Notes: generated by a model from the sequence alone, not told the origin. DNA of 64,000 bases from Sulfurihydrogenibium sp. YO3AOP1 (GCF_000020325.1 NC_010730.1:670001-734000), one strand, 5' to 3'. Counted from the stretch's first letter, positions 2,296 to 22,455 are shown. A program made the numbers and translations.

Positions 2296-2325
2296 TTGAC
2301 AAATCTACATCTAATAATCTAAAAT
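2296..2325 (+). promoter_or_regulatory. sigma-70-type promoter of the CalpL/Cmr operon
   Basis: TTGACA at 2296-2301 and TAAAAT at 2320-2325, spacing 18. Transcription would start near 2332. This puts the in-frame TTG at 2292 upstream of the transcript and supports the GTG at 2358 as the first start codon. Confidence 0.6.
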
Positions 2326-2357: not shown

Positions 2358-2837
2358 GTGTTTAGATTTTTTGATCTTTTTAACGAAGACCAAAAAGAAA
2401 AGCTTGTTCAGTATAAATCATTTCATTCAGGTGATTTCCTAATTGTCAGAGTAAAAGAATTCTACCAAAAAAGCAATATTCCCTTAACTACAGACATTGA
2501 TAATGTATGCCCTTTAAAACAAAGACCAATTATAATCATAAGAGACAACAACGGAACTATTTCTTTTGTTGCTACATCTACTAATATATTGTTTAAGCAT
2601 AAACGACCAAAGATAAATCTATCAAAATGCTTCTTCCAAAAAAGAACAAAAGAAGAATGTTTAGACCTAGACATAAAAGATGAAGTATTTTTATTCACAA
2701 AAGATGGCATTTCTTTTGATTTCTATGTAGATAGGCAAGTGTTAATAGACTTTTACAAAGAAGGCAAACTTAGAAAGTGCGGAAACTGTTCAATGATATT
2801 GCCGCTAATAGAAAAATACATAGATGGAGCAGGATAA
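2358..2837 (+). CDS. uncharacterised MazF/PemK-like protein, first gene of the CalpL operon
   Basis: A 159-residue protein I do not recognise by name. The stretch SGDFLIVRVKEF followed by LKQRPIIIIRDNNGTISFV resembles the N-terminal part of MazF/PemK (GD..LV..F....KxRP.(V/I)(V/I)I), so a MazF-like fold is plausible; I infer no RNase activity. A CGNC pair lies near the C-terminus. The frame is open back to a TTG at 2292, but the GTG at 2358 has GGGATGGGG upstream and lies after the promoter. Its stop overlaps the ATG of the sigma-factor gene by one base (TAATG), so the two are translationally coupled. Position suggests a role with CalpS/CalpT. Cytoplasmic; no signal or membrane segment. Confidence 0.7.
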   Translation: MFRFFDLFNEDQKEKLVQYKSFHSGDFLIVRVKEFYQKSNIPLTTDIDNVCPLKQRPIIIIRDNNGTISFVATSTNILFKHKRPKINLSKCFFQKRTKEECLDLDIKDEVFLFTKDGISFDFYVDRQVLIDFYKEGKLRKCGNCSMILPLIEKYIDGAG

Positions 2838-3511
2838 TGTCAGGAAATGATTTAATCTTTAATTTTTTTTCAGAAAACGACCCAAAAGGCTTAGAAGTTA
2901 TAAAAAATATTTTTTTCAAAATCATCAGCAGTCCTACCTATCAACTCATACTTAATTACTACGATAAAGAAGATGTATTTCAAGAATTCTTAGCGACCAA
3001 AATCTTGCCACATAGAAATCACATAGTAGATAAGTTTTTTGAGCAACAAAGCGGATTGGTTAGCTACATTCAAAGAATGACAAAAAACTTTTTAGCCGAT
3101 GTTTACGCATCGGTCAAATTGATGTCAGAAAACGAAATATCTGAAGTTATTATTAGTAAAGAGGAAGATGATGAAGATGAAGTTAAAAGTTATTTTGACC
3201 TAATTGGAAAGAGAGAAAATTATACTCTAAGCATAGAAGTTGAAGAGCTAAAAATAGCTTTTACAAAGCGTCTGTCAGACAACGAGATGTTAATGTTTTG
3301 CTATCAAATATCTGATAGTAAAGAACTTTATAAAAGTAAGTATTTTAATGACCTATCCGACGATGCATTGTATAAAAGAGTAGAAAGAATGAAAACAAAA
3401 ATAAAAGAAATTTTAAAAGAATATTCATTTTCAGCAGAAGCTTTTGAAAAGTTTTTAAAAGAACAATCTTATGAAATTTGTAAAAAATTTGAGGTAAATA
3501 GCAATGGCTAA
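2837..3511 (+). CDS. calpS: CalpS-like ECF-type sigma factor
   Basis: A 224-residue protein. Its first half (YYDKEDVFQEFLATKIL through SYIQRMTKNFLADVYA) looks like sigma region 2. An acidic linker (KEEDDEDEVK) follows, and then a helical segment with ALYKRVERMKTKIKEIL that fits region 4. In the published CalpL system the sigma factor CalpS is held by CalpT and freed when CalpL cuts CalpT; the gene order here (sigma, MazF-like, SAVED-Lon) is the same. Start chosen at the ATG at 2837, with GGAG upstream and one-base overlap with the preceding stop; a longer frame to 2777 lies inside the previous gene. Sequence alone would give only a weak sigma-factor match; context makes the call strong. Confidence 0.85.
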   Translation: MSGNDLIFNFFSENDPKGLEVIKNIFFKIISSPTYQLILNYYDKEDVFQEFLATKILPHRNHIVDKFFEQQSGLVSYIQRMTKNFLADVYASVKLMSENEISEVIISKEEDDEDEVKSYFDLIGKRENYTLSIEVEELKIAFTKRLSDNEMLMFCYQISDSKELYKSKYFNDLSDDALYKRVERMKTKIKEILKEYSFSAEAFEKFLKEQSYEICKKFEVNSNG

Positions 3512-4319
3512 GTGGTTAAAAGATCTTTATAATGAATATATAGAAGAAGAGTTGGAAGAAGACTTAACCTCTCACATCTCACGTTCAACGTTTCCAGTAA
3601 TAGGTGGAGTATACTTTGGAAGCTTAAAATCTTTAAATAAAGAAAAACCAAACAAACCTTTATATTTCTTAGTATTAAGGAAAATAGATAATAATTTGTA
3701 CGAAATTATGAAGGTTTCAGATTGGCATCATTTTGCATCTAATACAGAAATATTTATAGAATTGCCAACAATGACTTTAATAATAGAAACTACAAATAAT
3801 TTTTATTTAACTTCAGAAGAAATATCTAAATTCATATTAATAGACATATTAAGCAAAGAAGATTTAACAAACATACTAAAATTCCGTCGTGGTCATGAAA
3901 TACCAGGACTAAAAAAAGGCTTTACTCCAATATTTGAAGATGATATCAGAAACAAATTTAAAAAAGAAGAGTTTAATCAAATAAAAGAATTCCACACAAG
4001 AATTTTTGAGATTTTGGCAGAGCCTGAAGAGCAAGTGATAGAAATAGCGCCCGAGAGAATTAGCGAATTTGTATTAAGACATGTTGCATCTACTTCACAA
4101 AAAGCTACATATACAGATGATTTTGTTTTATATCGTGGGGATGATTTTATAGAGATAATTATAGACGAGAAATATTTAAATAAAAAAGTAAAAATACTTT
4201 TAGACAACGATACTATTTTCAACGGCATCTTAAAAGATACAAGCATATTTATTCCTGTGAAAGAACAGATAGACCTAGAAGAACTTGCAAAACACATTAG
4301 TATTTTACCTGAGGGGTGA
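3504..4319 (+). CDS. calpT: CalpT-like MazF-homologous sigma partner, protease substrate
   Basis: A 271-residue soluble protein (about 32 kDa). Residues 34-75 (GGVYFGSL ... KPLYFLVLRKIDNNLYEIMKVSDW) fit a MazF-like beta barrel, as reported for CalpT. CalpT is cut by cA4-activated CalpL into about 23- and 10-kDa parts; I recall the cut between Ala195 and Ser196, and this sequence has RHVA-STSQK exactly there, in a loop-like stretch, giving fragments of 195 and 76 residues. The gene overlaps calpS by 8 bases and ends 3 bases before calpL. Odd: residues 22-30 (TSHISRSTF) are encoded by CTCACATCTCACGTTC, a copy of a repeat that is otherwise intergenic. Confidence 0.87.
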   Translation: MAKWLKDLYNEYIEEELEEDLTSHISRSTFPVIGGVYFGSLKSLNKEKPNKPLYFLVLRKIDNNLYEIMKVSDWHHFASNTEIFIELPTMTLIIETTNNFYLTSEEISKFILIDILSKEDLTNILKFRRGHEIPGLKKGFTPIFEDDIRNKFKKEEFNQIKEFHTRIFEILAEPEEQVIEIAPERISEFVLRHVASTSQKATYTDDFVLYRGDDFIEIIIDEKYLNKKVKILLDNDTIFNGILKDTSIFIPVKEQIDLEELAKHISILPEG

Positions 4320-4322
4320 TTT

Positions 4323-5813
4323 ATGCATATAAAACAGTTATTAAAAAACAAAAGGTTTGAAGTAATCAAAGCATTAGTAGAATCAAAGAAAATAAAACAA
4401 GAATGGTTAGAAGATTTATACTCTATACTTCTTAAGCAAGATACAGATGTTGAAATCACGCAAGCAAAATATGAGATAATAAAATTACTGCTAACAGAAA
4501 AGAAATATTTAAATTTTGAACTGCTTACCAAAACCCTAAACCTTGACCAGCAAACAGCCATAGAGATAATGAGAAATCCATTTAAAGAAGTATATTTCCC
4601 TACCTACAATATAGAAAACCCTGAAGAATCAAGATTAAATAAAGCATTAATAATACCTTTATCAAACCAAACTTTCACACTAAACACATTTGTTAATAGT
4701 CAAGATTTAGAAACTATAAAAGAAGCCACAAATAAAAACTTTTTTGTGATTTTTGACAACATTTTTAGCGGAAAATCTTACCAATTAGCCGTTGCAGCAG
4801 GTTTGATAGCAAAAGAAAAAGAAATTTTAGATAATGTTGCTTTTACAGGAGAAGTTTCATCAAATGGGTTTATAATACCGGTTAATCATTTAGAAGAAAA
4901 GAAGGAAATAACTGAAAAAGCTAAAAAAGTTTTAATAACTCCGGAAGACATAGAGAACTTAGAAGAGCTTAGCTTTTGGCTCAATCCAGAGCATTTGCCT
5001 GTAATATTTATACATATAAATAAACCAGAGTTAGCTTTACAATCTCTAAAACAAATGGAAGATGCAATCAAGAAAGATGAAAGATTTAAGTATTTCAAAT
5101 TAGAAAATCTAAAGAAATTCTACAGGTTGGAAGACCAAGATATGTATCTAATAACACCAAGTGTAGATTTTTCAAACAGAGAAGAGCTTATAAAAATTTT
5201 AAACGAGTTTAGAGAAAAAGTTAGTAAACTTTTGACATTAGAAGGGGTAATAAAAGATCACAATAAAGTAGTTCTAAATATCTCAGCGGGAATATCTACA
5301 TTGGCTTTGTATTTTGGCGTTATTCTTGGAAACAGACAGGCAAGCATAATTTATCATTATCAAAAAGAATATCACAAAGTTATAGACTTAACAGATAATC
5401 CAAGAAAGATAAAAGAGAAAAAGTCAGAATTTGAAAAAATTTCTGTTAATAAAAATATACAAGATCCGTTGATGATAATTATTTATCTTGCAAGCCATAA
5501 TCCGATAGAAAAAGGATTAGAGCTTAAAGAAAAGTTAAGAGCTAAAGGGGAGTTGATAATACAAAGTAAAGAGCATCAGGGCAATTTAGAGATTGGGGAT
5601 TGGAGCGATATTGTTTCTGAGATTTACACAGCAATAGATGATAATAAGCAAAAAGAAAACTATATGGTATTTTCAGCGCCTGTTGCAATAATGCTTGCTC
5701 TTGGTATGGCTCTTGGCTACTTTTTACCGATAAAAGTCTTTCACTATAACAGAGATGAATATATTGAAGTTCCTATAAAGTTAAATGAAGAGATTTTAAG
5801 AAGTCCATTTTAA
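4323..5813 (+). CDS. calpL: CalpL, SAVED-domain Lon protease
   Basis: A 496-residue effector of type III CRISPR. The middle (about 105-260) is a Lon-type protease domain: FDNIFSGKSYQLAVAAG contains Ser152 and TGEVSSNGFIIPVNHLEEKKE contains Lys193, the positions I recall as the published catalytic dyad. The C-terminal part (about 290-490, including NKVVLNISAGISTLALYFGV and the MVFSAPVAIMLALGMALGYF block) fits a SAVED domain, which binds cyclic tetra-adenylate. No AAA+ ATPase is present, unlike housekeeping Lon. Model: Cas10 makes cA4, CalpL oligomerises and cuts CalpT, releasing CalpS. It starts 3 bases after calpT (GGGGTG ribosome site) and is followed by cmr1. Confidence 0.95.
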   Translation: MHIKQLLKNKRFEVIKALVESKKIKQEWLEDLYSILLKQDTDVEITQAKYEIIKLLLTEKKYLNFELLTKTLNLDQQTAIEIMRNPFKEVYFPTYNIENPEESRLNKALIIPLSNQTFTLNTFVNSQDLETIKEATNKNFFVIFDNIFSGKSYQLAVAAGLIAKEKEILDNVAFTGEVSSNGFIIPVNHLEEKKEITEKAKKVLITPEDIENLEELSFWLNPEHLPVIFIHINKPELALQSLKQMEDAIKKDERFKYFKLENLKKFYRLEDQDMYLITPSVDFSNREELIKILNEFREKVSKLLTLEGVIKDHNKVVLNISAGISTLALYFGVILGNRQASIIYHYQKEYHKVIDLTDNPRKIKEKKSEFEKISVNKNIQDPLMIIIYLASHNPIEKGLELKEKLRAKGELIIQSKEHQGNLEIGDWSDIVSEIYTAIDDNKQKENYMVFSAPVAIMLALGMALGYFLPIKVFHYNRDEYIEVPIKLNEEILRSPF

Positions 5814-5838: not shown

Positions 5839-6735
5839 ATGGAGGAAGCTATTTTTAAAGTAGAAATCATAACTCCAACCATCATGGGCGGAGCAAATAG
5901 TGGAAAATTAGACTCTATTTTTATAAGACCAACAGAAATAAAATCTACAATGAGACAGGCTTTTAGATTAGTTGCCGGCAAGTATGTAAGGCACGATAAT
6001 GAAAGAGTTGAAGATTTATACAAATTAGAAAGCGAAGTTTTTGGTAATACAGAAGGAAAAGGAAAGTTTAGATTGATTGTTGATATTCCAAACAATCTAA
6101 AAACTGAAAAAATCAAATTACTTCCACATAAAAATGATTTTTCTAAACTTGCCATATTGCCAAACCAAACTTTTGATTTAAAAATCATTTCTTACAAATA
6201 TCCGGTAGAATTCTATAAAGCACTGATAAACATTGCTTTTCTGCTTGGAGTAGGACATAGAAGAAACAGACTATTTGGAAATATGCAGATAGAACAATTT
6301 AAATTACCGGATGAAGTAGGAAAAATTGATAAATTCTTTTTAGATGAAGGATATAAAGAAATAAAAACAGACAACCCTTTATTTGCTTGTTTTTCTAAAA
6401 GAGAAGATGGCGATAATAGAAATTTTTCAGTTTTTGGTATGCCTCTAAAAGATGAATATATACCAATAAATAAACAAAATTTTGAAAAAGCTTTAGAAAA
6501 TCTCTACGAAAAAGTAATCCATGGAATAAAAGGAGAAAAGTTAGACTTTATTCTTGGGGGAGTAAATCCAAGAAGACAAGCATCTTTCGTAAACTTTTCT
6601 ATTTTAAAAGTTGGTCAATCTTACAGATTGTTTGTTATTGGCTTTTATTACAAGAATGAAAAATTTAAATATAATGATTGGAAAAATGCAATAGAAAAAG
6701 CTAAAGAACTAACAGAAAAACTTTTAAAAAAATAA
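5839..6735 (+). CDS. cmr1: Cmr1, type III-B RAMP subunit
   Basis: A 298-residue Cas7-group RAMP of the Cmr effector, which sits at the head end of the complex near the 3' end of the crRNA. The N-terminus ITPTIMGGANSG ... IRPTEIKSTMRQAFRLVAG and LESEVFGNTEGKGKFRL are typical of Cmr1. A second RAMP-like half follows with GVGHRRNRLFGNMQI and FILGGVNPRRQASFVNF. AGAGAGAGG upstream serves as ribosome site, 26 bases after calpL; cmr2 follows 14 bases later. Part of one long operon. Confidence 0.93.
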   Translation: MEEAIFKVEIITPTIMGGANSGKLDSIFIRPTEIKSTMRQAFRLVAGKYVRHDNERVEDLYKLESEVFGNTEGKGKFRLIVDIPNNLKTEKIKLLPHKNDFSKLAILPNQTFDLKIISYKYPVEFYKALINIAFLLGVGHRRNRLFGNMQIEQFKLPDEVGKIDKFFLDEGYKEIKTDNPLFACFSKREDGDNRNFSVFGMPLKDEYIPINKQNFEKALENLYEKVIHGIKGEKLDFILGGVNPRRQASFVNFSILKVGQSYRLFVIGFYYKNEKFKYNDWKNAIEKAKELTEKLLKK

Positions 6736-6749
6736 GAGAGGGCTAAAAG

Positions 6750-8459
6750 ATGGCTAAGTATTTAGTAAAAATAACCATTCCATCTATACAAGATACAATT
6801 GTAAGGTCAAGAAAACTTAAAGATTTGACAGGTGGTAGTGAGCTTATTCCAAGGATTATGCAATCAGGATTAAAGTCTCTTGAAAATGATGACAAAGTAG
6901 AGTTTATAATTCCAACAGCTGATGTTGTAAAAGAAGATAGCCTAAACATAACAAACGTAGCATATCTTACAATAGAAGGAGAGAAAGAGCAGGTAATCGA
7001 AAAAGTTAAACGCATAAAAGAAGAAATGTTAAAAGAATTAAACACTCTTGAAGAAGCGGTTAGACGTAAAATTTCAGATAATGAAGAATTTAATAAGTAT
7101 AAAGATTTAATTGCCTATCAAATCAGAAATGCTATCAATATAGTTTGGGCTATTAGTGAGATTAAAGATAACGATATTGTAAAAGCAAAAAATGATGTAG
7201 ATATTGCAGTAGCTAATGCAAAATCATCAATAGAACCTGATGATAAATTTATTGAAGGATTTAATCTTTTTCAAAAGCAAAAGAATCAGTATTCAGCTTT
7301 TGAAAATTATCAAGATTTTATGGAAAAAGCATATCAAATCAATCCAGAGCTTATAAGAGGAGCTTATCTTTGTGATGTATGTGGAAAAAGAGTAATACTT
7401 GGAGCAACAAAAAATAACTTTAAAAGCTCAATCACAGAAAAAGATGAAGATGACAGACTCTGCGCATTTTGTTATGCAAAGAGACATTATCATGGAGAAC
7501 ATAAAAAATCCGTTGTTGATGTAGCTTTAAAAAAATATCTTGCAGAACATGAAAGTAGAATACAAGAAATCTTTAAAAATCATGGAAAAGCAGACTTATT
7601 TGAAAAAGACAAACAAAACATATACATAGAGGTATTGGAAAATAACAAAGAAGACCAAGCTTTGATTGAATCTTTAAAAAAATTATACAAAGAAATTGGC
7701 AAAAAACCACCTGTTTATTATGCCATCGTTGTAATGGATGGGGACTCAATGGGAGAAAAAATATCAAAAGCATTTGAAGAGAATAAGATTATAGATATAA
7801 CTGAAAAGTTATCAGAATTTAGTAAAGAGGTTAAAGGTATAGTAGAAAAATACTCCGGAATGGCTGTATACTCGGGTGGTGATGATGTTTTAGCATTGTT
7901 CCCGTTAGAAACGGCTCTAAAAGGATATATGGAAATAATAAGTCAATTTAAAGATAAATTTAAAGATATGAAAGATACAGAATATAACTTTACAGCAAGC
8001 GCAGGTTTGGTAATATCCCATTACAAAATACCTCTTAGCTATGTATTACAAGAAGCAAGGTCTGCAGAAAGCAAAGCTAAAAAAGTTGATGGAAAGGATG
8101 CAGTATGCATAAAATACATAAAACACTCGTTCTCATCAGCAGAAGCACCGATAAAAAACGATCATTTACAATTATTTAAAGAGCTAATAAGCTTTCTATC
8201 CGATGAAGATTTTCCGTTTGGTTTTATCTATCAACTGCAAGAGCTTTTACTTCCATACCTACCAAAAACAGAAGATGAAGAACCTGTTAAAGAGCTAACA
8301 AAATATCTAATTGATAAGAAGCCTTACAAGAGAAAAAAAGAGTTTATTGATTTTATGTTAAACGCCCACATTAATGATAAGAAGTTTTTTGACTTCAAAG
8401 AACCGGAAAAAATAATCAACACTTTAAAAGTAGCTAAATTTATAGCAAGTGGGGTGTAA
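6750..8459 (+). CDS. cmr2: Cas10/Cmr2, cyclic oligoadenylate synthase, no HD domain
   Basis: Large subunit of the type III-B complex, 569 residues. It begins directly with the first Palm-like domain (KITIPSIQDTIVRSRKLKDLTGGSELI). A zinc finger is formed by Cys208/Cys211 and Cys238/Cys241. The second Palm domain has VVMDGDSMG (about 328-335) and YSGGDDVLALFP with the intact GGDD at 376-379, needed for cyclase activity. The N-terminal HD nuclease domain found in many Cas10 proteins is absent, and the length is short for the family. So defence should rely on cOA signalling and target RNA cleavage by Cmr4, not on DNA cutting by Cas10. This fits two predicted cOA receptors in the same operon. Confidence 0.96.
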   Translation: MAKYLVKITIPSIQDTIVRSRKLKDLTGGSELIPRIMQSGLKSLENDDKVEFIIPTADVVKEDSLNITNVAYLTIEGEKEQVIEKVKRIKEEMLKELNTLEEAVRRKISDNEEFNKYKDLIAYQIRNAINIVWAISEIKDNDIVKAKNDVDIAVANAKSSIEPDDKFIEGFNLFQKQKNQYSAFENYQDFMEKAYQINPELIRGAYLCDVCGKRVILGATKNNFKSSITEKDEDDRLCAFCYAKRHYHGEHKKSVVDVALKKYLAEHESRIQEIFKNHGKADLFEKDKQNIYIEVLENNKEDQALIESLKKLYKEIGKKPPVYYAIVVMDGDSMGEKISKAFEENKIIDITEKLSEFSKEVKGIVEKYSGMAVYSGGDDVLALFPLETALKGYMEIISQFKDKFKDMKDTEYNFTASAGLVISHYKIPLSYVLQEARSAESKAKKVDGKDAVCIKYIKHSFSSAEAPIKNDHLQLFKELISFLSDEDFPFGFIYQLQELLLPYLPKTEDEEPVKELTKYLIDKKPYKRKKEFIDFMLNAHINDKKFFDFKEPEKIINTLKVAKFIASGV

Positions 8460-8460
8460 T

Positions 8461-9471
8461 ATGATAGGAATTAAACCGTTTGATGTATTAACCTTTGGAG
8501 ATGGAAAGCCGTTTAATGCAACAGAAAGAGTTTTTAGAGAATCAGATTTCTTTATAAATCCAATCCCGGTTGTCAGCGGACTAAACAAAGCCACGGGTAA
8601 AAAACTAAACTTAGAGTTTATATCCCTTGCAAAAGGAGAAAATCTATACTTTAAAGCACCAATAGATATAAAAGTCGCAAATAGCAGAGTAATCAAACCG
8701 GTTGTCAGAAAACTTGACAATGTAATTACAGAAGAAAATTTAGAATATTTTTTAGATTATCAAACCAGCGAGAAGATGGAGGATTTAAACGGCTATTTAA
8801 AAGATGAGGAGTATATAAAATACTTAAAAGACGAAGAAATGTCGGTTAATACAGAGCTTTTAAGACCACATAAAGAATTAAGAACAGGTATAGCAATAGA
8901 TAGAAGCACGAGAACCACAAAGGAAGGGTACTTATTTACTCAAACATTTAACAGATTTGAAGAAGATGTTTATTTTTATGTAAAACCATCTAAAGATTTA
9001 AATATCGATACTGTAATCATTGGCGGAGAAAGTAGGCTATCGGTCGTAATTAAAAAAGACAGGGATTTAACAGAAAGACTTTTAAAAGAAAAGGAAAATA
9101 TAAAGAACATTGTCAGAAAGACAGGATTTTTCAAGTTAATATTACTATCACCTACAAACAAGGTATTAGAAATAGAAGGAGCAAAAATCATAGCTAAGGT
9201 TTTAGGAAAACCATTTATTTACAGCAGTTGGATAAAATTGCCAAATGACAAAACAGGATTTCCAAGCAGAATATTTAGACTAATTCCTGAAGGTTCGGTT
9301 GTTTACTACAAAGTAGAAGACCAAAGCAAAATTGATGAAATATTTGATAAATACTATCTAAAGCCGGCTTATTATGAGCTTGAATATCCATACTTTGATA
9401 CTAAAAATCCAACAGGATTTGGATTAAGCATAATAGGAGCTTTAAATTTAAATAAAGGAGGTCAAGGATAA
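8461..9471 (+). CDS. cmr3: Cmr3, Cas5-type subunit of type III-B
   Basis: Cas5-like RAMP that holds the 5' handle of the crRNA next to Cmr2. The start MIGIKPFDVLTFGDGKPFNA and the region STRTTKEGYLFTQTFNRFEED are typical; a glycine-rich end (NPTGFGLSIIGALNLNKGGQG) is present. The ATG at 8461 is preferred over an in-frame start 12 bases upstream because it follows GGGGTG and the cmr2 stop. 336 residues. The stop shares a base with the cmr4 start. Confidence 0.93.
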   Translation: MIGIKPFDVLTFGDGKPFNATERVFRESDFFINPIPVVSGLNKATGKKLNLEFISLAKGENLYFKAPIDIKVANSRVIKPVVRKLDNVITEENLEYFLDYQTSEKMEDLNGYLKDEEYIKYLKDEEMSVNTELLRPHKELRTGIAIDRSTRTTKEGYLFTQTFNRFEEDVYFYVKPSKDLNIDTVIIGGESRLSVVIKKDRDLTERLLKEKENIKNIVRKTGFFKLILLSPTNKVLEIEGAKIIAKVLGKPFIYSSWIKLPNDKTGFPSRIFRLIPEGSVVYYKVEDQSKIDEIFDKYYLKPAYYELEYPYFDTKNPTGFGLSIIGALNLNKGGQG

Positions 9472-10247
9472 TGAAAAAAGTTTTCTATCATGTTTTAACA
9501 CCAATGCACATAGGCAGTGGAACAACGTTAAGTTTAATAGACTTACCAATACAAAGAGAAGCACATACAGATTTTCCGGTGATGCCATCATCAGCAATCA
9601 AAGGTGTTATAAGAGCTTCATTTAACGAGCAAGAACAAGAAGATATCTTTGGAAAAGGAGATGAAGAAGGAAAAGTCATATTTACAGATGGAAAGATTCT
9701 TTTGTTTCCGGTAAAATCTCTAAAAGGCGTTTTTGTATGGATAACTTCTCCTTACGTTCTCGAAAGGTTCAAAAGAGATACAGAAATAAACGTCGAAATT
9801 CCAAAAGTAGAAAAAGACAATGCGGTAGTATCTTCAAATAAAGTCCTGATGAATAATAACAAGCTTGTTTTAGAGGAATTTACATTTAATGCCACAATAA
9901 ACGAAAATCTAAAAAAACTCAAAGAAATCACAAAATGCGAAATAGATGAAGACAAAATAGCAGTAGTAAGCGATGATGTATTTAAATTTTTTGTTAAAAA
10001 CTATACAGAAGTAAACGCAAGAATTAAAATCGACCAAACGAAAGGAACAGTTGATAAAGGTGGACTATGGTACGAGGAGTTATTACCTGCAGAAACAGTG
10101 TTCTACGGGTGTATAGATGCAAGAAAAAAATCTGAACATGAAGAACAGCTAAATAAAGTAATAGAAAAAATAAACAATCAAATCCTTCAATTTGGAGGAG
10201 ATGAGACCTTAGGAAGAGGATTTACAAAAATAGTAATGGAGGCGTAA
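9471..10247 (+). CDS. cmr4: Cmr4, Cas7-type backbone subunit
   Basis: 258 residues. The repeated backbone RAMP that forms the filament along the crRNA and cleaves target RNA at 6-nt steps. The motif block HVLTPMHIGSGTTLSLIDLPIQREAHTDFPVMPSSAIKGVIR is diagnostic, as is the C-terminal LQFGGDETLGRGFTKI. Asp29-equivalent chemistry is expected from the loop around SLIDLP, by family knowledge. AGGAGG lies upstream. Overlaps cmr3 by one base and precedes cmr5 by 3 bases. Confidence 0.95.
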   Translation: MKKVFYHVLTPMHIGSGTTLSLIDLPIQREAHTDFPVMPSSAIKGVIRASFNEQEQEDIFGKGDEEGKVIFTDGKILLFPVKSLKGVFVWITSPYVLERFKRDTEINVEIPKVEKDNAVVSSNKVLMNNNKLVLEEFTFNATINENLKKLKEITKCEIDEDKIAVVSDDVFKFFVKNYTEVNARIKIDQTKGTVDKGGLWYEELLPAETVFYGCIDARKKSEHEEQLNKVIEKINNQILQFGGDETLGRGFTKIVMEA

Positions 10248-10250
10248 GAG

Positions 10251-10664
10251 ATGAAAACATTAGAACAAGAGAGAAGTAATTATGCTTTTGAATGTGTTTC
10301 TAAGATAAAAGGTAAACCTTTTGAAAAAGATGCAAGCTCGTTAATATCTAAGCTTGGCACACTTATTTTAACAAACGGACTTGGAAATACTTTAGCTTTT
10401 TTATTTGCAAAAGGAAAAGACCATCATCTTGAAGTTATAGCGATTATTTCAAATTGGTTGTTTAGACAAGAAGGTCAAAAAGAACCCGGTTTTAAGAGAG
10501 ATAATGTAAAAGTTAAAATTGAAGAAATAATGAAAAAACTCGTTCTTGATGCAAGCGTTGAGCAGTATATGTACTATACAGAGGAAACTTTAAGACTTGT
10601 AAATTGGTTAAGAAGATTTTCTGATGCGATTTTAGAGTCCGGAGGCGAAAATGAACAAGGATAA
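10251..10664 (+). CDS. cmr5: Cmr5, small subunit of type III-B
   Basis: 137-residue all-helical small subunit that lines the filament opposite Cmr4. Recognised by the N-terminal LEQERSNYAFECVSKIKG and NGLGNTLAFLFAKGKDHHLEVIAIISNWLF. It overlaps the next gene by 14 bases, consistent with coupled translation of the two subunits. Confidence 0.9.
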   Translation: MKTLEQERSNYAFECVSKIKGKPFEKDASSLISKLGTLILTNGLGNTLAFLFAKGKDHHLEVIAIISNWLFRQEGQKEPGFKRDNVKVKIEEIMKKLVLDASVEQYMYYTEETLRLVNWLRRFSDAILESGGENEQG

Positions 10665-11484
10665 ACATAATCCAGGACAAGATGCAATATTAGTTATTCC
10701 AAAAGGAAATGATATAAAACTTTCATTAAAAAGTGCATCAAATTTAAAGTTGATTTTAGAAAAGTATATCCCATTTTATAATATGCAAAACAAAAGGATG
10801 CTTGATATATCTAAAGCTAAAGAAAAGGTTTACGAATTAAAGCCAAAAAATTTCCAAGAAGCTGACAATTATATAAAAAAACTAAATGAAAGGCAAAGAC
10901 AGATAGCAGATAAAAGCTTTACGCTTACTACAAAATCAAGATTGATAGTTGGACTTGGCGGTGGTTCTGCTTTGGAAGTTTCTATTAAATTACATTTTAT
11001 TTACGGTTTTCCTTACATTCCATCAAGCGCAATTAAAGGCGTTTTAAGGGCTTATAAGATTTTAAAAAAGGTAAATTTTGATTTTGAAAAGTATTCAGAT
11101 CTTGAAAAAAGGATTGAAAGCGGAGATGGAGAAGACAAAGAGATAGGAGCGTTTGTAAGGGTTTTTGGAAATCAGCAATACAAAGGAGATTTAATCATTC
11201 TTGATGCTATTCCAGAAAACTTTCCAAGATTAGATGAAGATATCATGAATCCACATTATCCAAAATATTACAATGATAAAGAGCCACCAACTGATGACCA
11301 AAATCCAAATCCTATAAAATTCTTAACAGTAGCAAAGGGAGAAAAATTTAACTTCTATTTTAAAAACAGTGAGGTTTATAAAGAAGCTTTTAAAACAGAT
11401 TTAAAAGAAGATTTAATACAAGCGTTTAACTATCTTGGCATTGGAGCAAAAACCGGCATAGGTTATGGAGTGTTAGATGGGTAA
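10651..11484 (+). CDS. cmr6: Cmr6, Cas7-type terminal subunit
   Basis: 277-residue RAMP located at the 3' end of the crRNA, next to Cmr1. RLIVGLGGGSALEVSIKLHFIYGFPYIPSSAIKGVLRAY and the glycine-rich end FNYLGIGAKTGIGYGVL identify it. Starts inside the end of cmr5 and itself overlaps the following membrane-CARF gene by 8 bases, so that gene is tied to the Cmr operon rather than merely nearby. Confidence 0.94.
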   Translation: MNKDKHNPGQDAILVIPKGNDIKLSLKSASNLKLILEKYIPFYNMQNKRMLDISKAKEKVYELKPKNFQEADNYIKKLNERQRQIADKSFTLTTKSRLIVGLGGGSALEVSIKLHFIYGFPYIPSSAIKGVLRAYKILKKVNFDFEKYSDLEKRIESGDGEDKEIGAFVRVFGNQQYKGDLIILDAIPENFPRLDEDIMNPHYPKYYNDKEPPTDDQNPNPIKFLTVAKGEKFNFYFKNSEVYKEAFKTDLKEDLIQAFNYLGIGAKTGIGYGVLDG

Positions 11485-12481
11485 GTGGTTTAAAAAGTAC
11501 AAATATTCTGCAAGTCTAATAGAATTTATAATAATCGTATTTTTAAGTTATGTTCCGTTTATTATTGCCGAAAGTTTAAAGGATAATCCATTAATTCCTT
11601 TCAGTCTTTTGGCAATTTCATCCTTAGTGTTTTCTTCTATTTCACTTTTATTGTACCATCAATGCTTTTATAAAAGAACAGCTAAAGAATTTTCCGGCGT
11701 TTTAAGATATTTGCTAATTGGAGAAGTTGGTGGATTGATTGGTCTTATAGGCTTTTTGTCTGAGTTTGTTTTATCAAGCTTATTGGCAGAATATATAAAG
11801 AATATGATAGCTAATGAAGATTTAATGAAGAATGCAGGATTGGCAATTACTACATTTTTTAACATGTTTTCTGTTGGCTTTGTTTTTGTCTATTTCTTTG
11901 ACAAACAATTACAAACTAAACCATCTAAAGGCAGAGAACCAAAACCTGTATTGATTTTTGGTTTATCAATACCTAATAAACCAACAGAAAGAGATAAATA
12001 TAAGAACATCATCAGTGATTTGCCTCAGAACTACGAACCCATATATGAACTTTTAGAATTTCATAAGGATGTTTTAAAAGAGATACACGTTCTGTATACT
12101 CATGAAACTATAGAAAACGATATGAAAAAAAATGGATTAGAGTACTTAGATAAAATTTTAATCAGTCTTGGAATATATCATAAAATTAAAATTTACAAAT
12201 ATGAATGTGATTTTGATAATGAAAATAGTATGAAAGAAAAGATAGCAGAAATAAACACCAAAATAAAAAAATATGAAGACAAAGATATTTCAATTTATAT
12301 TTCTAGTGGAACAAGCTTAGTATCACCATTATTAACGCTTTTAGGTTTGGAAAAAGATAGGCAAATAGAATATGTAAATCAGAAAGAACTTAAAGACCTT
12401 ACTAAATTACCAGAAATAAAAGCAATAGAAATATCAAAAGATGATGCTTTACTATTTCTTAAGACTTTGGCTTTAAAATGA
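11477..12481 (+). CDS. four-TM membrane protein with C-terminal CARF-like domain, probable cOA effector
   Basis: 334 residues. Four hydrophobic helices are visible at about 13-31, 40-60, 78-105 and 120-141. A soluble domain from about 157 to the end begins with a beta strand (KPVLIFGLSIPNKPTERD), has a middle strand LKEIHVLYTHET, and carries DISIYISSGTSLVSPLLTLLG, which matches the CARF signature (strand, then GGT/SGT-like turn and helix). By analogy with Cam1, a CARF protein with a membrane anchor, ligand binding could open or disturb the membrane. Cam1 has one helix; the four helices here make this a different architecture, and I do not know a name for it. It overlaps cmr6 by 8 bases. CARF assignment is by eye. 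Confidence 0.75.
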   Translation: MGKWFKKYKYSASLIEFIIIVFLSYVPFIIAESLKDNPLIPFSLLAISSLVFSSISLLLYHQCFYKRTAKEFSGVLRYLLIGEVGGLIGLIGFLSEFVLSSLLAEYIKNMIANEDLMKNAGLAITTFFNMFSVGFVFVYFFDKQLQTKPSKGREPKPVLIFGLSIPNKPTERDKYKNIISDLPQNYEPIYELLEFHKDVLKEIHVLYTHETIENDMKKNGLEYLDKILISLGIYHKIKIYKYECDFDNENSMKEKIAEINTKIKKYEDKDISIYISSGTSLVSPLLTLLGLEKDRQIEYVNQKELKDLTKLPEIKAIEISKDDALLFLKTLALK

Positions 12482-12508: not shown

Positions 12509-13039
12509 ATGAATTCACAGAAATTAAACTTAAGCACGCCAAACATACTTGGTGGTATTGGTGGTATTTTTTGGTAATAGGATTTTTGTTTAACCTGCTT
12601 GGTCTTGTTGGTTTAATTCTTGTTTTGGTTGCTTTTTATCAGTATTCACAAATTCTAAATAAACCGTCCATATTTCAGTATGGATTAAGATGGGGTATAT
12701 TTCTCTTCGTTGCAGAAATTTTGCTTATTTTCTTTGTGATAGCTGCAATTATCGGAGACGGTAATACATTTTTGGCCGTAGTTGGTGCTTTATTGGCTTA
12801 TGGATTGGCCATATTTGCAGTTATTAATCTTAAAAAAAGCTTTAACAGAATTATCAATTACTTTAAACTAAAACCTTTTTGATATATCTGGAAAGTTTAT
12901 TTTCTGGGGAACTTTGCTAATTATAATATTAATTGGACTTTTAGAGATATTTATAGGCTATATACTGCTTACAATTGCATTCTTCACCGCACCTAAGGAA
13001 ATACAATTAAATAATGTAGAAGAAACGAACGTAATGTGA
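12509..13039 (+). pseudogene. frameshifted DUF996-like membrane protein gene
   Basis: Three consecutive segments in frames 2, 1 and 2 form one DUF996-like protein. The first, MNSQKLNLSTPNILGGIGGIF from 12509, has a strong GAGGAGG site. The second, 12571-12879, is VIGFLFNLLGLVGLILVLVAFYQYSQIL and so on. The third, from 12881, is DISGKFIFWGTLLIIILIGL and ends at a TGA near 13039. The first break is in a T6 run (12567-12572; one T short) and the second in a T5 run (12876-12880; one T extra). The product would be a four- to five-helix membrane protein. It could be a decayed gene, a slippage-controlled gene, or sequence error in homopolymers. Located after the Cmr operon; role unknown. Confidence 0.65.
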
Positions 13040-13317
13040 GAAATTGAAATTTTGATAAAATTAAAAAAGATATCCTTTGGACTGAAGCTATCAGAATAAA
13101 AAAAGAGTGATAGACAGCAGATTAAATAGACATCTAACTTCTCACCTTTTACTCTTCTTAAGTAAGGGCAGTTCATGAACTGCCCCCCAACATCCATCAA
13201 CCTCTCATTTTCTTACTTTTAACATCCGCAGCTAAGATCTTTAAAAATCTTTTGAATTTCTCACTCCTACAAAGCACATATCATATAATATTATAAAACA
13301 GCAAAATTTGCTATTTT
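13040..13317. other. gap with repeat remnants
   Basis: No gene seen. It contains a degenerate copy of the GATCCTTCGGACT repeat near 13070 and a perfect 20-base palindrome at 13166-13185 with its CAACATCCATCAACC flank. Confidence 0.5.
13166..13185. repeat. perfect 20-bp palindrome (TTCATGAA family)
   Basis: GGGCAGTTCATGAACTGCCC, followed by CCAACATCCATCAACC. Sister copies are at 34696-34713 and, inverted, at 59946-59981, with a looser one at 2159. Confidence 0.75.
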
Positions 13318-13800: not shown

Positions 13801-13843
13801 CAGGTTTATAATAAATAGAAAAATAAAAAGGAGTTAGAAATTG

Positions 13844-14602
13844 ATGAGGGTAAAAATTCCTATAACTACAGAAAAAGTTCCAATTATTTTCAGGCAGAGG
13901 GTTTTAGCTTTCATAAAAGAAGCTTTGGCACAAGCAGACAAAGATTATAAAGAAAGTATGTATAGCGTAAGAATGCCAAAGGCTTATACCTTTAATCTTG
14001 TTTTTGATAGAACTAATCCAAAAGAAGAAGAAATTTCTCTTGATGAAAAATTTAAAATCAAAGATAAAGTCTTTTACCAAGATAGACCTGTATTTTTGTA
14101 TATTTCATCAAACGATTATCAGTTTTTAATAAATCTTTTTAATGGTATGAAAAAGATAAAAATTTTTGATTTTAATAAGTTTGATAACATCTATTGGCAA
14201 GTTGGAAAGCCTGTAATACTAAGAGAAAAAATTATTTTCAATGATGAAATTATATTTAAAACCAATGCACCGTTTATTATTGAAACAAAAGATGATAGAC
14301 CTGTGGTTTTTAGCGATGAAAACTTTCAAACCGAACTAAACAACGTAATGGAAAGAATTTTTAGAAAGCTTGACAACAGAGGCTTAAAACAGCCGCTTGA
14401 ATTCTATCCTATAAAGATGAAAAAAGAAGTGATTAAGCACACGTTAAGAGGTTTTAGAGAAAAAACAGGGAAGCCAATCATGTATATCACAGGAAACAGC
14501 GGAATTTTTCGATTAAAAGGTCATCCTGAGGATTTACAGACAATTTACCAAATAGGACTTGGAAATAGAACAGGACAGGGATTCGGTATGGTTAGTACGT
14601 GA
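13844..14602 (+). CDS. cas6: Cas6 crRNA endoribonuclease
   Basis: 252 residues. Cleaves the CRISPR transcript within each repeat to give crRNAs with a repeat-derived 5' handle. The duplicated ferredoxin-like fold is suggested by its length and the C-terminal glycine-rich loop IGLGNRTGQGFGMV, the Cas6 hallmark. It is the only Cas6 in the window, so it probably serves both the Cmr and the type I-B complex. The ATG at 13844 is preferred to a TTG three bases upstream; AAGGAG at 13829-13834 fits either. A TATAAT at 13807-13812 may be its -10, but no -35 at normal spacing is visible. Confidence 0.92.
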   Translation: MRVKIPITTEKVPIIFRQRVLAFIKEALAQADKDYKESMYSVRMPKAYTFNLVFDRTNPKEEEISLDEKFKIKDKVFYQDRPVFLYISSNDYQFLINLFNGMKKIKIFDFNKFDNIYWQVGKPVILREKIIFNDEIIFKTNAPFIIETKDDRPVVFSDENFQTELNNVMERIFRKLDNRGLKQPLEFYPIKMKKEVIKHTLRGFREKTGKPIMYITGNSGIFRLKGHPEDLQTIYQIGLGNRTGQGFGMVST

Positions 14603-14702
14603 AACGTTTAACGTGAGACGTGAGACGTAAATAATTAGTTAGAAAAGGTTTTTTGACGTTTCATGTTCAACTTTTCACGTCTCACGTAAAAGGAGGTGTA
14701 AT
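14603..14702. repeat. CTCACGT-type repeat cluster, inverted pair
   Basis: Between cas6 and the four-helix-bundle gene. It has AACGTGAGACGTGAGACGT near 14612 and, about 50 bases on, TTTCACGTCTCACGT in the opposite sense, forming a possible hairpin. Related copies lie in calpT, in cas8, at the cas7 end, before the array and at the array end. Confidence 0.7.
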
Positions 14703-15062
14703 ATGAAAACGCACAAAGATTTGGATGTATGGAAAAACGGGATTGAATTGGTTGAGAAAGTTTATATAGTAACATCAAGCTTTCCAAAAGAAGAGATATA
14801 TTGTTTAACATCGCAGATAAGAAAAAGTGCTATATCTATTCCAAGCAATATTGCTGAAGGGTCGGCAAGGAATAGCACAAAAGAGTTTATACAATTTCTT
14901 TATTTTGCATTAGGATCTACTGCAGAATTAGAGACACAACTTATAATATCAAGAGAATTAGGCTATCTAAAAGATTTAAGTATATTTGAAGATTTAGAGA
15001 AAATAAAGGCTCAGTTGATAAATTTAATACGAACTTTGAAAAATAAAATGAATAGTAAGTAA
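14703..15062 (+). CDS. four-helix-bundle protein, S23/IVS-encoded family
   Basis: 119 residues. The block HKDLDVWKNGIELVEKVY ... LTSQIRKSAISIPSNIAEGSARNSTKEFIQFLYFALGSTAELETQL is typical of the family first seen in intervening sequences of 23S rRNA genes and related to the Avd accessory protein of diversity-generating retroelements. Function is not established; the family forms basic pentameric bundles. AAAGGAGGTG gives a strong ribosome site. It is preceded by an inverted pair of CTCACGT repeats and interrupts the usual cas6-cas8 order, so it may have been inserted there. No rRNA, reverse transcriptase or variable repeat is present nearby. Confidence 0.88.
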   Translation: MKTHKDLDVWKNGIELVEKVYIVTSSFPKEEIYCLTSQIRKSAISIPSNIAEGSARNSTKEFIQFLYFALGSTAELETQLIISRELGYLKDLSIFEDLEKIKAQLINLIRTLKNKMNSK

Positions 15063-15073
15063 GGAGTAGAACT

Positions 15074-16693
15074 ATGGAACTCTTTAATAGAAAAGATTCT
15101 CACGTTTCACCTCTCACCTCTCACGTCTCACGTATATACCTTGGCGATTGGCTTTACAATGCAGGTATCGTAGGATTTCTAAGAATTAATAACCATCTTT
15201 GGGATGTAAAAGATAAAAAATTAATTTCAAAAGACGAAAATCTTTTAAAAATTGGAGATAACTATATAGAGATTGACAGAAAAATTTTTGATGGCTTTAC
15301 CGATAGGTTTTTTGATTATGCTTTTAATCTCTATGGCAGGTACGATAGAAAATTAAAAAGATTTAGAGAATTGCTTGAAAATCTAAATGATGGAACATTT
15401 AAAGATGTCTATAAAGACTTCAAAGAAGAAGTCAACGGTTTTACACTTTTAAAAAATAAACTTGGAGATATAAAAGCTAAAAACTCTCAAGAACTTAAAC
15501 ATCTGATTGAAAAAGCAATAAGAATTTTGGAGCAGGACAAGGAGGAGTTTGTAGAAAGCGACGTTCAGATATTTTTAAGGAGTTTTAACGGTCAAAAAAG
15601 CTTTTTAAATAAAACTATAACAAAAGATAGAAAAAAGAAATTTTATGAAGACTTTGAAGAGCCTTTAAAAACGGATAACAATCAAAAAGATAAAAAATTC
15701 ACTTGCGTAATCTGTGGAGAAAGACCGGCAAAAAAAGACACAAATTATGATACAGGATTTTCGCCGATATTTGGATTAAATAAAGACGCAGTTAACTTTG
15801 CTTGGAATTTCAATACAAAACTGCCATCCTGTGATATCTGTGAAATTGTTTACTTTTGCTATTTTGCAGGACTTACAGAGTTAAATGGAAAATATTACTT
15901 TGTAAATTTAGATGATTCTGTTGAATCTTTGATGCTTGCAAACAACTTGTTTAAAGAAGAGATAGAAAAATCTCCTGAAAATCCATTTGTAGACTTCTTT
16001 ACCGAGTACTTATTAAGAATAAAAAAATCGCAAGCTAAATACACCTTGTCAAATATAAACTTCTTAGAAACAGAATTAAAGGAAACACTTCCAAAAGTTT
16101 TTAGCTTTAACATCGATTATAAAACTGCTGAATTTATAGAAGAAAATCATGAAAATCTTAAGTTATTGTCAAAATCATTTTTTATACTACCAGATAAAAA
16201 TAAAACAAGAGTCTATATTCTCACCGAGTTTTTAAACTTGATTTTGAAGAAAGATTTAAACTATGGGCTTTTATATAAAATCTTTAAAAGTGCTACACAA
16301 GATAAAGCTTATGTCAGTAATTATAATTTACAAAGGTTAATAATTATGTATCTTCTTTATAAACAAAAAGTTGGAGGTAAAGAGATGGGCTTAGAAGAAA
16401 AAAGTTTATGGGCTATGTACATGCAAGGGAAAAATCTTCTTGAAAGGCTAAAAGATGGAGATGCAGAAAACAAAATCCAATCTATAGCATATAAGCTTTT
16501 AAATGCTTTAAAGATTGGAGATGTAAACCAGTTTATGGATGTGATGATGAGAGTTCACATGGCTTATGATTTGGAAGTTCCAAGTTTGTTAATAAAGGCA
16601 CTGCAGGATAAAGATAACTTTTATCTCCTTGGATACAGCTTTTTAAATGGACTACTTGGAAAAGAAAATAAATTACAGGAGGAAAACCAATGA
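15074..16693 (+). CDS. cas8: Cas8 (Cst1/CXXC-CXXC type), type I-B large subunit
   Basis: 539 residues. Large Cascade subunit, expected to recognise the PAM. IYLGDWLYNAGIVGFLRI begins the conserved part; a zinc finger follows as CVICGERPAKKD and CDICEIVYFC (two CxxC pairs), the Cst1 signature. The C-terminal third is helical and probably acts as small subunit. AAGGAG lies 7 bases before the ATG. Odd: residues 8-21 (KDSHVSPLTSHVSR) between the start and the conserved core are encoded by tandem CTCACCTCTCACGTCTCACGT-like repeats, so a dispersed repeat has been accepted in frame. Start overlaps of the next genes make this an operon through cas2. Confidence 0.9.
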   Translation: MELFNRKDSHVSPLTSHVSRIYLGDWLYNAGIVGFLRINNHLWDVKDKKLISKDENLLKIGDNYIEIDRKIFDGFTDRFFDYAFNLYGRYDRKLKRFRELLENLNDGTFKDVYKDFKEEVNGFTLLKNKLGDIKAKNSQELKHLIEKAIRILEQDKEEFVESDVQIFLRSFNGQKSFLNKTITKDRKKKFYEDFEEPLKTDNNQKDKKFTCVICGERPAKKDTNYDTGFSPIFGLNKDAVNFAWNFNTKLPSCDICEIVYFCYFAGLTELNGKYYFVNLDDSVESLMLANNLFKEEIEKSPENPFVDFFTEYLLRIKKSQAKYTLSNINFLETELKETLPKVFSFNIDYKTAEFIEENHENLKLLSKSFFILPDKNKTRVYILTEFLNLILKKDLNYGLLYKIFKSATQDKAYVSNYNLQRLIIMYLLYKQKVGGKEMGLEEKSLWAMYMQGKNLLERLKDGDAENKIQSIAYKLLNALKIGDVNQFMDVMMRVHMAYDLEVPSLLIKALQDKDNFYLLGYSFLNGLLGKENKLQEENQ

Positions 16694-17604
16694 AAGGTTT
16701 AACTTTAACAGTAATCTTTGAAGCTTCAAGCTTAAACTATGGTGAATCTATAGGAAACATTTCAGAGCTAAAAAAACTTACAAGAGATGGTGAAGTATAT
16801 ACCTATATGTCAAGACAGGCTTTAAGGTACGAGGTCTTCAGAAAATTAAGAGAGCTTTTTAACGTAGATGCTGATAAAGAAGTTCCGTTATCAGATGAAA
16901 AAGGAACAATCCAGTTTAAACCAACAGCAAACATAAAAGATTATGTAGAAGTTGACCTATTTGGTTATATGAAAACTGATAAAGGTAAGGGTTCTTTGAC
17001 AAGGTCAGCGGTTGTTAGATTTTCTCCTGCTATATCATTATCTCCAATGGCTTTTGATGTAGAGTTTGGAGCTAATCATGACTTTGCAAAAAGAGCAAAA
17101 ACAGACCCTAATCCATTTCAGTTTGAAGTTCACAGTTCTTTGTATACCTATACAGTAGCAATAGATTTAGACAGGGTAGGAGTAGACCCAAACGATGGTA
17201 TAGAATTAGATGGCACTGAAAAAGCAAGAAGAGTAAATATGGTTCTTGATGCTTTAAAAATCTTAGATAGAGAGATTAAAGGAAGGACAGAAAATTTAAG
17301 TCCGTTGTTTGTAATTGGTGGACTTTATCCTGTTAAAAATCCATTCTTCCTTGGAAGGATAAAAGTAAACTACGATAGAAATCAAAGAAAGTACAGCTTA
17401 AACACAAAAGAAATAGAATCTGTTCTTAGCTTAAAGCTAAATGGTAATTCTGTAAAAGATTATACTTCTTGCGGGCTTGTAGAGGGCTTTTGGGCAAATG
17501 AAGACTATATTATACAAAATCTAAATGGAAAAACTATTAGCGATTTCTTTGAAGAGTTGAAGTCTAAGGTAAATCAGCACTATAACGTGAGACGTGAGAC
17601 GTGA
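16690..17604 (+). CDS. cas7: Cas7 (Cst2/DevR family), type I-B backbone
   Basis: 304 residues. Backbone subunit of Cascade that binds the crRNA spacer. The start KGLTLTVIFEASSLNYGESIGNISELKKL and the RDGEVYTYMSRQALRYEVFRKL block are typical of Cst2/DevR. ATGA overlap with cas8. Odd: the last residues NVRRET and the stop are made by AACGTGAGACGTGAGACGTGA, another copy of the CTCACGT repeat, so the original C-terminus appears to have been replaced or extended. Confidence 0.92.
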   Translation: MKGLTLTVIFEASSLNYGESIGNISELKKLTRDGEVYTYMSRQALRYEVFRKLRELFNVDADKEVPLSDEKGTIQFKPTANIKDYVEVDLFGYMKTDKGKGSLTRSAVVRFSPAISLSPMAFDVEFGANHDFAKRAKTDPNPFQFEVHSSLYTYTVAIDLDRVGVDPNDGIELDGTEKARRVNMVLDALKILDREIKGRTENLSPLFVIGGLYPVKNPFFLGRIKVNYDRNQRKYSLNTKEIESVLSLKLNGNSVKDYTSCGLVEGFWANEDYIIQNLNGKTISDFFEELKSKVNQHYNVRRET

Positions 17605-17628
17605 AACGTTGTTTATAGGAGTTAAATT

Positions 17629-18321
17629 ATGAGCATTTTAAGAGTAAGGCTATATCAAGAGTTTGCATGTTATAGAAAACCAATAACGTATGGATTTTGG
17701 GAGACCTATCCTCTCCCGCCGCTATCAACTGTAAAAGGATTTTTTCATAATGTAGTAGAGGCAAAAGAGTATATGCCCGCAAGATACGGCATTCAAGGAA
17801 AGTTTAAATCTGTTGTTCTTGACATGCAAAGTATGTACAAATTTGGTAGAAAAGACTCAGAAAACAAAGGAATTATCATAGAAGGTTTTAACAAGCCACT
17901 TTTAAAATCTCCAATATACGTATCTAATCTTTACGCAGTTGAGCTTACAATCTATATAGAGTCTAAATTAGAGTATTTAGAAAAGTTTAGAGAGAATCTT
18001 TTAAATCTTGAGTATCCATCACTTGGAAGAAAAGAAGACCTTGTAAGGGTTGACTCGGCAGATATAGTAGAGCTTATAGAAAGGGATTTGTTTGAAGACA
18101 GCTATCCATTAGAAAACGGAATCTATTTTTCAAAAGAAAAAGCAAAAGAGCTTGAAGTAAATGGAATAAACTACAGAATGAATTTTTACTACGAAAGTAA
18201 AAACGGCATAAGATTTTTTAAGAAAAAGGACGTTGTGTATGTTGATAATAAAAATTTAGAAATTGGAAGCATTCTATATGATAAAGAAGAGGATAAAGTT
18301 GTTGATTTAATCGGAGATTAA
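17629..18321 (+). CDS. cas5: Cas5 (Cas5t type), type I-B
   Basis: 230 residues. Caps the 5' handle of the crRNA in Cascade. Recognised by the N-terminal LRVRLYQEFACYRKPITYGFWETYPLPPLSTVKGFFHNVV, where the LPPLSTVKG-type stretch is conserved in Cas5. TATAGGAG precedes the ATG by several bases. The 24-base gap after cas7 is filled by the CTCACGT repeat. Followed one base later by cas3. Confidence 0.92.
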   Translation: MSILRVRLYQEFACYRKPITYGFWETYPLPPLSTVKGFFHNVVEAKEYMPARYGIQGKFKSVVLDMQSMYKFGRKDSENKGIIIEGFNKPLLKSPIYVSNLYAVELTIYIESKLEYLEKFRENLLNLEYPSLGRKEDLVRVDSADIVELIERDLFEDSYPLENGIYFSKEKAKELEVNGINYRMNFYYESKNGIRFFKKKDVVYVDNKNLEIGSILYDKEEDKVVDLIGD

Positions 18322-18322
18322 C

Positions 18323-20512: not shown

Positions 20513-21022
20513 ATGGATTTAGAAACTCTAAAAGAGATAAGAATCACAGGCTTAAAGGTAAATTATTACTACATATGCAAAAGAAAATTATGGCTTTTTT
20601 CTAAAAATCTTAACTTTGAGAAAAACAATGATAAAATCATTCTTGGTCAAATACTTCATGAAAATTATTATAAATCAGAAAAAGAGAGGGATATTTTAAT
20701 TCAAGAGTTAATATCGATTGATATCGTTGATGATGATTACATAAGAGAGGTTAAATCTTCTGATAAAATGGAAAAAGCAGATACAATGCAGGTTGTATAC
20801 TATCTGTACGTTTTAAAACAGCTCGGAATTGAAAAAGTTGGACTTATAAACTATCCAAAGCAGAAAAAGAAGAAAGAAGTTTATCTAACAAAACAGTTGG
20901 AGCAAGAGCTTTTAGAATCTTTAAAAGATATAGAAAAAATCATCAATCAGCCTAATCCACCAAAATTAGAAAAACTTCCTTACTGCAAAAAATGTTCATA
21001 CTTTGAATTTTGCTTTGCATGA
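20513..21022 (+). CDS. cas4: Cas4 adaptation exonuclease
   Basis: 169 residues. RecB-like nuclease that trims prespacers and sets PAM-dependent orientation together with Cas1-Cas2. Four cysteines for an iron-sulfur cluster are seen: one in YYICKRKLWLF and three in the C-terminal YCKKCSYFEFCFA. Nuclease residues fit IREVKSSDKM and ADTMQVVYYLYVL. Directly abuts the cas3 stop. Confidence 0.93.
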   Translation: MDLETLKEIRITGLKVNYYYICKRKLWLFSKNLNFEKNNDKIILGQILHENYYKSEKERDILIQELISIDIVDDDYIREVKSSDKMEKADTMQVVYYLYVLKQLGIEKVGLINYPKQKKKKEVYLTKQLEQELLESLKDIEKIINQPNPPKLEKLPYCKKCSYFEFCFA

Positions 21023-21034
21023 GAGGTTTTTTAT

Positions 21035-22015: not shown

Positions 22016-22016
22016 G

Positions 22017-22283: not shown

Positions 22284-22331
22284 ATTTCTGCTGAGGGTGC
22301 TGTAAAAATTTTTGTAAATTTGCCTTTCCTT

Positions 22332-22422
22332 GTCATACTGAGGACGAAGTCCGAAGTATCTCTTTTTTGATTTTTGACTTGAAAAGAAAAAACATGAGAT
22401 TCTTCGCCGGCTGCAGAATGAC
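22332..22422. repeat. dispersed inverted repeat element (GTCATxCTGAG family)
   Basis: Two facing arms: GTCATACTGAGGACGAAGTC at the left and GATTCTTCGCCGGCTGCAGAATGAC at the right (each starting GTCATxCTG on its own strand), around an AT-rich loop. Outside, AAAAATTTTTGTAAATTTGC recalls the outer tails of the copies at 24485 and 30184. Non-coding. Confidence 0.7.
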
Positions 22423-22455
22423 AGTGTGGATTTTTAAAACACTCTCAATTTCTGC

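Follow-up and report, generated by a model that had tools for sequence, protein, structure and literature searches.

Type III CRISPR systems can act through proteins that are switched on by cyclic oligoadenylates, and the locus considered here, from Sulfurihydrogenibium sp. YO3AOP1, raises the question of what follows when such a protein, the Lon-SAVED protease CalpL, cuts the anti-sigma factor CalpT, the partner of the sigma factor CalpS. We analysed a stretch of 64,000 nucleotides that holds the locus (GCF_000020325.1, NC_010730.1:670001-734000, that is, 670001-734000 of the 1,838,442-base genome; hereafter the window, with positions counted from its first letter). By examining the operon in the window together with its relatives in other Aquificota, we find that a gene directly ahead of calpS, here called orf0, is, on comparative evidence, a constant, selected and obligate fourth member of the Calp operon in that phylum. 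We hypothesize that the operon is a four-component module in which orf0 probably works with CalpS and CalpT, most likely as a ribonuclease (RNase)-type effector or as a regulator. Orf0 matters because the events after the CalpT cut are the question left, and because it is always present, carries the catalytic residues of MazF and travels with the sigma/anti-sigma half of the operon; it is a direct and testable candidate for a share of that answer.

The window holds the published type locus of the CalpL-CalpT-CalpS antiviral switch, whose proteins were described from this same strain (passages of PMC11417357). By sequence comparison, CalpL of the window is 100% identical to PDB entries 7qda, 8b0u and 8b0r over residues 2-496, and PDB chain 8b0u_D, the crystallised 'CalpT10', is identical to CalpT of the window from S196 on. 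A preliminary description of this DNA had read the order sigma factor, MazF-like protein and SAVED-Lon protease directly ahead of cmr1-6 as the Calp pathway and had proposed comparison with the characterised proteins; as the locus is one already published and solved structurally, that reading is correct and chance plays no part in the observation. The residues that it singled out are also in place: Ser152 and Lys193 of the Lon domain are both present and invariant among 18 CalpL homologues, the SAVED domain is matched by PF18145 and NF033611, the VA-ST site at residues 195-196 of the substrate corresponds to A195/S196, with CalpT10 beginning exactly at S196, and the GGDD of Cas10/Cmr2 is intact at residue 376 (7875-7886), in type III-B cmr genes that lie directly downstream of calpL. 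R361 of CalpL, which has been implicated in ring-nuclease activity (passages of PMC11417357), is likewise invariant in the 18 homologues. Since the core pathway, namely binding of cyclic tetra-adenylate (cA4), CalpL oligomerisation, CalpT cleavage, and degradation of the CalpT23 remnant that is thought to free CalpS, has been published for these same proteins (passages of PMC11417357 and PMC12751052), the preliminary description as stated adds nothing new. The interaction of CalpS with CalpT is likewise a published one.

What it left unnamed is the gene with which its range begins. The three genes that it named all lie within 2358-5813, but position 2358 is the start of a separate fourth gene, orf0, and the features of the Calp part of the operon are as follows.

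2296-2301 and 2320-2325, within 2296..2325, plus strand: putative housekeeping-type promoter, TTGACA and TAAAAT with an 18-base spacer, from the sequence and from element enrichment over 34 loci.
2358..2837, plus strand: orf0 (PADLOC C3a162), first gene of the operon, 159 amino acids, GTG start at 2358; predicted PemK/MazF-like fold with Arg56, Ser74 and Cys91/101/141/144.
2837..3511, plus strand: calpS, extracytoplasmic function (ECF)-like sigma factor, 224 amino acids, from homologue starts, the PADLOC helix-turn-helix (HTH) model and identity of the published locus.
3504..4319, plus strand: calpT, anti-sigma factor, 271 amino acids, from identity to 8b0u_D from S196 on, PADLOC CRISPR-T and the conserved A195.
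4086-4091, plus strand: CalpT cleavage site, A195 followed by S196, from the start of the CalpT10 chain.
4323..5813, plus strand: calpL, Lon-SAVED protease, 496 amino acids, from PDB identity, the SAVED domain and the invariant pair Ser152/Lys193.

A purine-rich stretch resembling a ribosome-binding site precedes GTG 2358, and calpS probably starts at ATG 2837 and not at GTG 2777, because its homologues begin there. Orf0 and calpS overlap by 1 nt, and calpS and calpT by 8 nt, but the overlapping starts of the preliminary description do not extend to calpT and calpL, which are 3 nt apart.

An orf0-type gene stands directly ahead of calpS in 35 of 35 Aquificota loci with sequence covering that spot: the window, L021 of genome G037 (in which orf0 is cut off by the end of the contig), L023-L038 (the L032 copy being split by a frameshift), and 17 loci from other families (L095, L096, L098-L110, L112 and L113). 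Four loci (L022, L039, L097 and L111) were left out of the count, as their sequence ends too soon to judge. Some copies in family f1 were admitted by position and the motif was seen in them afterwards, so that the linkage count rests partly on position; the 17 other-family copies, searched with a profile built without them, mostly score E 2e-9 to 0.035, with a best of 7e-13, in a small search. A family profile, which misses divergent copies, detected orf0 in 20 of 136 Aquificota genomes, all of them with CalpL, and in no genome of the 136 that lacks CalpL. Between the window and G037, the ratio of nonsynonymous to synonymous substitution rates (dN/dS) is 0.30 for orf0 (139 codons), compared with 0.10 for CalpS, 0.19 for CalpT and 0.06 for CalpL; this value and the 35 loci rule out an artefactual reading frame. 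A recent duplication of calpT as the source of orf0 was also ruled out (hhalign p 0.2-0.29). One further locus, L094 (G055:C168), has calpT and calpL and neither calpS nor orf0 within 2.9 kb upstream. At L023, L024, L032, L033 and L034, orf0 comes directly after sequences that look like the closing repeats of a CRISPR array, which places the module at the far end of an array in several genera.

A natural recombinant appears to tie orf0 to the sigma-factor half of the operon, inherited with CalpS and CalpT23 and apart from CalpT10 and CalpL. At L036 (G009:C264), orf0, CalpS and residues 1-176 of CalpT are 87, 97 and 88% identical to those of L028, and CalpT 177-271 and CalpL match those of L038 at 87 and 93% identity; the nucleotide switch falls inside calpT, at 8368-8370 of the oriented contig. 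The break lies about 15-20 residues before the CalpT cleavage site, and the segment that holds this site thus goes with CalpT10 and CalpL. An older exchange that divides the operon in the same way is found when L035 and L038 are compared with L037 and L031: CalpT10 and CalpL are 46-58% identical, whereas orf0, CalpS and CalpT23 are only 18-28% identical. Pairwise identities of orf0 correlate with those of CalpS (0.92) and CalpT23 (0.89) more than with those of CalpT10 (0.50) and CalpL (0.44), and leaving out L036 gives 0.90, 0.87, 0.72 and 0.69, respectively. This division fits the published halves, in which CalpT23 stays with CalpS (passages of PMC11417357) and CalpT10 was crystallised with CalpL (8b0u). 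Against such a module, the halves no longer separate when all loci of both events are left out, so that the case for it depends on two recombination events, of which one (L036) comes from G009, a fragmented draft genome.

Linkage of this kind bears on the reading that orf0 merely shares a promoter, as a constitutive RNase or housekeeping gene outside cA4 signalling that, for example, adjusts the operon's own mRNA. A k-mer enrichment analysis of the 80-base stretches that precede orf0 at 34 loci found TTGACA 4 times (0.64 expected), TATAAT 10 times (2.77 expected) and GGAAC not at all (1.45 expected), which gives no sign that CalpS, or an ECF factor, autoregulates its own operon; TCTGAC (5 observed, 0.37 expected) and GTGATA were also noted, some copies coming from related loci. 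A promoter that is only of the housekeeping type, together with no direct link of orf0 to cA4, would suit a constitutive gene, but one would hardly expect such a gene to be detected, across 136 genomes, only together with CalpL, to keep a strict order in 35 loci, and to be transferred together with CalpS and CalpT23, and we consider this reading improbable.

What orf0 might do is suggested by its predicted structure. The AlphaFold model (mean predicted local distance difference test score, pLDDT, 85.7) places R56 in a strand at 55-64 and S74 in a strand at 67-74, and a Foldseek search against viral models returns as its first three matches a PemK-like protein, an endoribonuclease and a PemK/MazF toxin (probability 1.00, 0.99 and 0.99; E 1.6e-3 to 2.7e-2). 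Compared by hhalign with a MazF alignment from the same bacterial family, orf0 gives p 7.7e-4 (CalpT 0.026, CalpL 0.11, CalpS 0.67), and the pairing sets its R-P on the R-P of MazF and its S/T strand on the MazF LTT. The catalytic pair of MazF is Arg and Thr, and Ser can stand in for Thr (PMC7354611, PMC11130411). The Arg is expected in strand 2 of the fold and the Thr/Ser in strand 3; R56 and P57 are present in 33/33 orf0 sequences, as is S or T at position 74. The predicted fold thus matches PemK/MazF toxins best, with the catalytic residues intact, and orf0 looks like an RNA-cutting toxin.

Several observations weigh against this assignment. The hhalign probability for orf0 and MazF is only 25%, the best E-value against the viral models is a modest 1.6e-3, a Foldseek search against the PDB gave nothing significant, and orf0 has no Pfam match; no antitoxin or MazE-like partner is evident for it; and MazF/PemK mRNA interferases, which are the best structural hits of the orf0 model and share with orf0 the R-P and the S/T at the catalytic positions, are without its four conserved Cys. 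Sequence searches of Pfam, PHROGs and the PDB with orf0 profiles returned nothing useful, and a Pfam search did not detect PF02452 (MazF/PemK) in this genome.

CalpT, which is also MazF-like, differs from orf0 at the catalytic Arg. The position of CalpT equated with the catalytic Arg of MazF is Arg in none of 36 CalpT sequences, with Ser/Thr kept; A195 is invariant in 18 homologues from the family and kept in 31 of 36 once other families are added, and the residue after it is small (A, G or S) in 34 of 36. The operon thus holds two MazF-like proteins, of which orf0 has the catalytic pair (R56 and S/T74) and CalpT lacks the Arg. An early reading in a 2022 review (PMC9704534) would make CalpT23 itself the toxin, a MazF-like nuclease freed by cleavage, with CalpS secondary; the absence of an Arg at that position from all 36 homologues speaks against it, as does the treatment of CalpT as an anti-sigma factor in later papers (passages of PMC11417357 and PMC12751052), and we regard it as very unlikely.

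Four Cys residues are a further conserved feature of orf0: C144 is found in 33/33 sequences, and C91, C101 and C141 in 32/33 each, with L110 carrying His at the C141 position. This pattern, with its one Cys-to-His change, suggests a metal site, and it is also what a non-enzymatic role might call for. Orf0 could be a metal-binding adaptor or co-anti-sigma factor with a MazF fold, which would bind CalpS or the CalpS-CalpT complex and tune the release of the sigma factor or its choice of promoters; its counterpart in type III-E Craspase loci would be Csx31. The four Cys, the overlap of the orf0 stop codon with the calpS start, the inheritance of orf0 with CalpS and CalpT23, the reported Csx31-Csx30-RpoE complex (PMC11106740), and the precedent of CalpT, a MazF-like protein without the catalytic Arg that acts as an anti-sigma factor, are all consistent with this. 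An adaptor would not need the catalytic Arg and Ser/Thr, however, yet they are kept in 33/33 orf0 sequences while CalpT has lost its Arg; we therefore hold the adaptor to be a serious alternative, though not the favoured one.

In the mechanism that we favour, the published part comes first: target RNA leads Cas10 to make cA4, the cA4 is bound by the SAVED domain of CalpL, CalpL oligomerises and cuts CalpT after Ala195, and degradation of the remaining CalpT23 is then thought to release CalpS. Orf0 would work with this sigma/anti-sigma pair, most likely as an RNase-type effector that is restrained by the CalpS-CalpT complex or freed along with it. A more specific form, a two-arm pathway in which CalpT cleavage frees both CalpS and a MazF-fold RNase, orf0, silenced by CalpS-CalpT, seems to us a tentative possibility, less likely than not. 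Were it true, type III signalling would join transcriptional reprogramming with RNA cleavage, and a catalytically complete MazF-type protein would share one complex with its catalytically dead cousin, CalpT.

For CalpS, the assignment as a sigma factor rests on published work, with weak support from the comparisons made here. CalpS has no sigma-factor Pfam match; the top Foldseek hits are ECF sigmaH-RNA polymerase chains, at non-significant E-values, and an hhalign comparison with sigma factors of the same bacterial family returns, over region 4, p 8e-4 (0.25-0.73 for the controls CalpT and orf0). A sigma-like gene with homologues does stand in the expected place next to calpT, and the genome has other sigma factors too (five PF04542 matches). 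The k-mer enrichment over the 34 loci yielded no motif usable for a genome-wide search for the CalpS regulon.

Downstream of calpL, the operon continues with the following genes.

5839..11484, plus strand: cmr1 to cmr6, type III-B effector complex, from profile searches including PADLOC; cmr1 starts 25 bases past the end of calpL.
11477..12481, plus strand: membrane-CARF protein (PADLOC CARF8--CARF_TM, E 4.5e-16).

The membrane-anchored CARF gene overlaps cmr6 by 8 nt and has relatives in Calp loci L021-L023, L031 and L037; its product probably serves this operon as a second effector that responds to cyclic oligoadenylates. It is followed by a DUF996-like membrane gene (12571-13040), apparently shortened by a stop codon, past which membrane-like coding sequence runs on, and possibly decayed. 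After the III-B operon, 13841-24223 holds a type I-B cas operon (cas6, cas8b1/cst1 and further cas genes, with a likely cas1 at 21035-22015) and an 18-repeat CRISPR array (23080-24223). Short dispersed stretches like CTCACGTCTCACGT occur in both orientations between and inside genes, calpT included (3564-3602, 14593-14688, 15097-15134 and 17580-17609). Beyond this genome, no CalpL was found in plasmids, phages or IMG/VR contigs. A SAVED protein without a Lon domain is encoded at L040:7284-8279 (PADLOC SAVED4--SAVED_TM) in genome G018, which also has a full Calp operon, and similar pieces are found in G008 and G019.

Among known systems, the closest is the published YO3AOP1 Calp system, which is the same locus, described as tripartite and without mention of orf0 in the passages covered (PMC11417357). 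CalpL of Candidatus Cloacimonas acidaminovorans (PDB 9eyi-9eyk) is the same kind of protein and a distant homologue (E 4.3e-36 over residues 52-476). Orf0 is a member of PADLOC family C3a162 (PDLC01080), a type III accessory protein (E 4e-58; 16 of the 33 homologues match), whose entry says 'Unknown function' only and is silent on fold, active site and any obligate link to CalpS. At a larger distance stands the type III-E Craspase module, which consists of Csx29, Csx30, CASP-sigma and Csx31, the last being a conserved protein placed alongside the sigma factor and Csx30 (PMC10028731, PMC11106740). Craspase differs from Calp in using a CHAT and not a Lon-SAVED protease and in having no cyclic nucleotide step, but both have a CRISPR-activated protease, a cleaved anti-sigma factor, an ECF sigma factor and, as fourth member, a conserved protein whose role is unknown (PMC10028731, PMC11106740); as an analogy of layout only, but a notable one, orf0 would parallel the unexplained Csx31 of type III-E systems.

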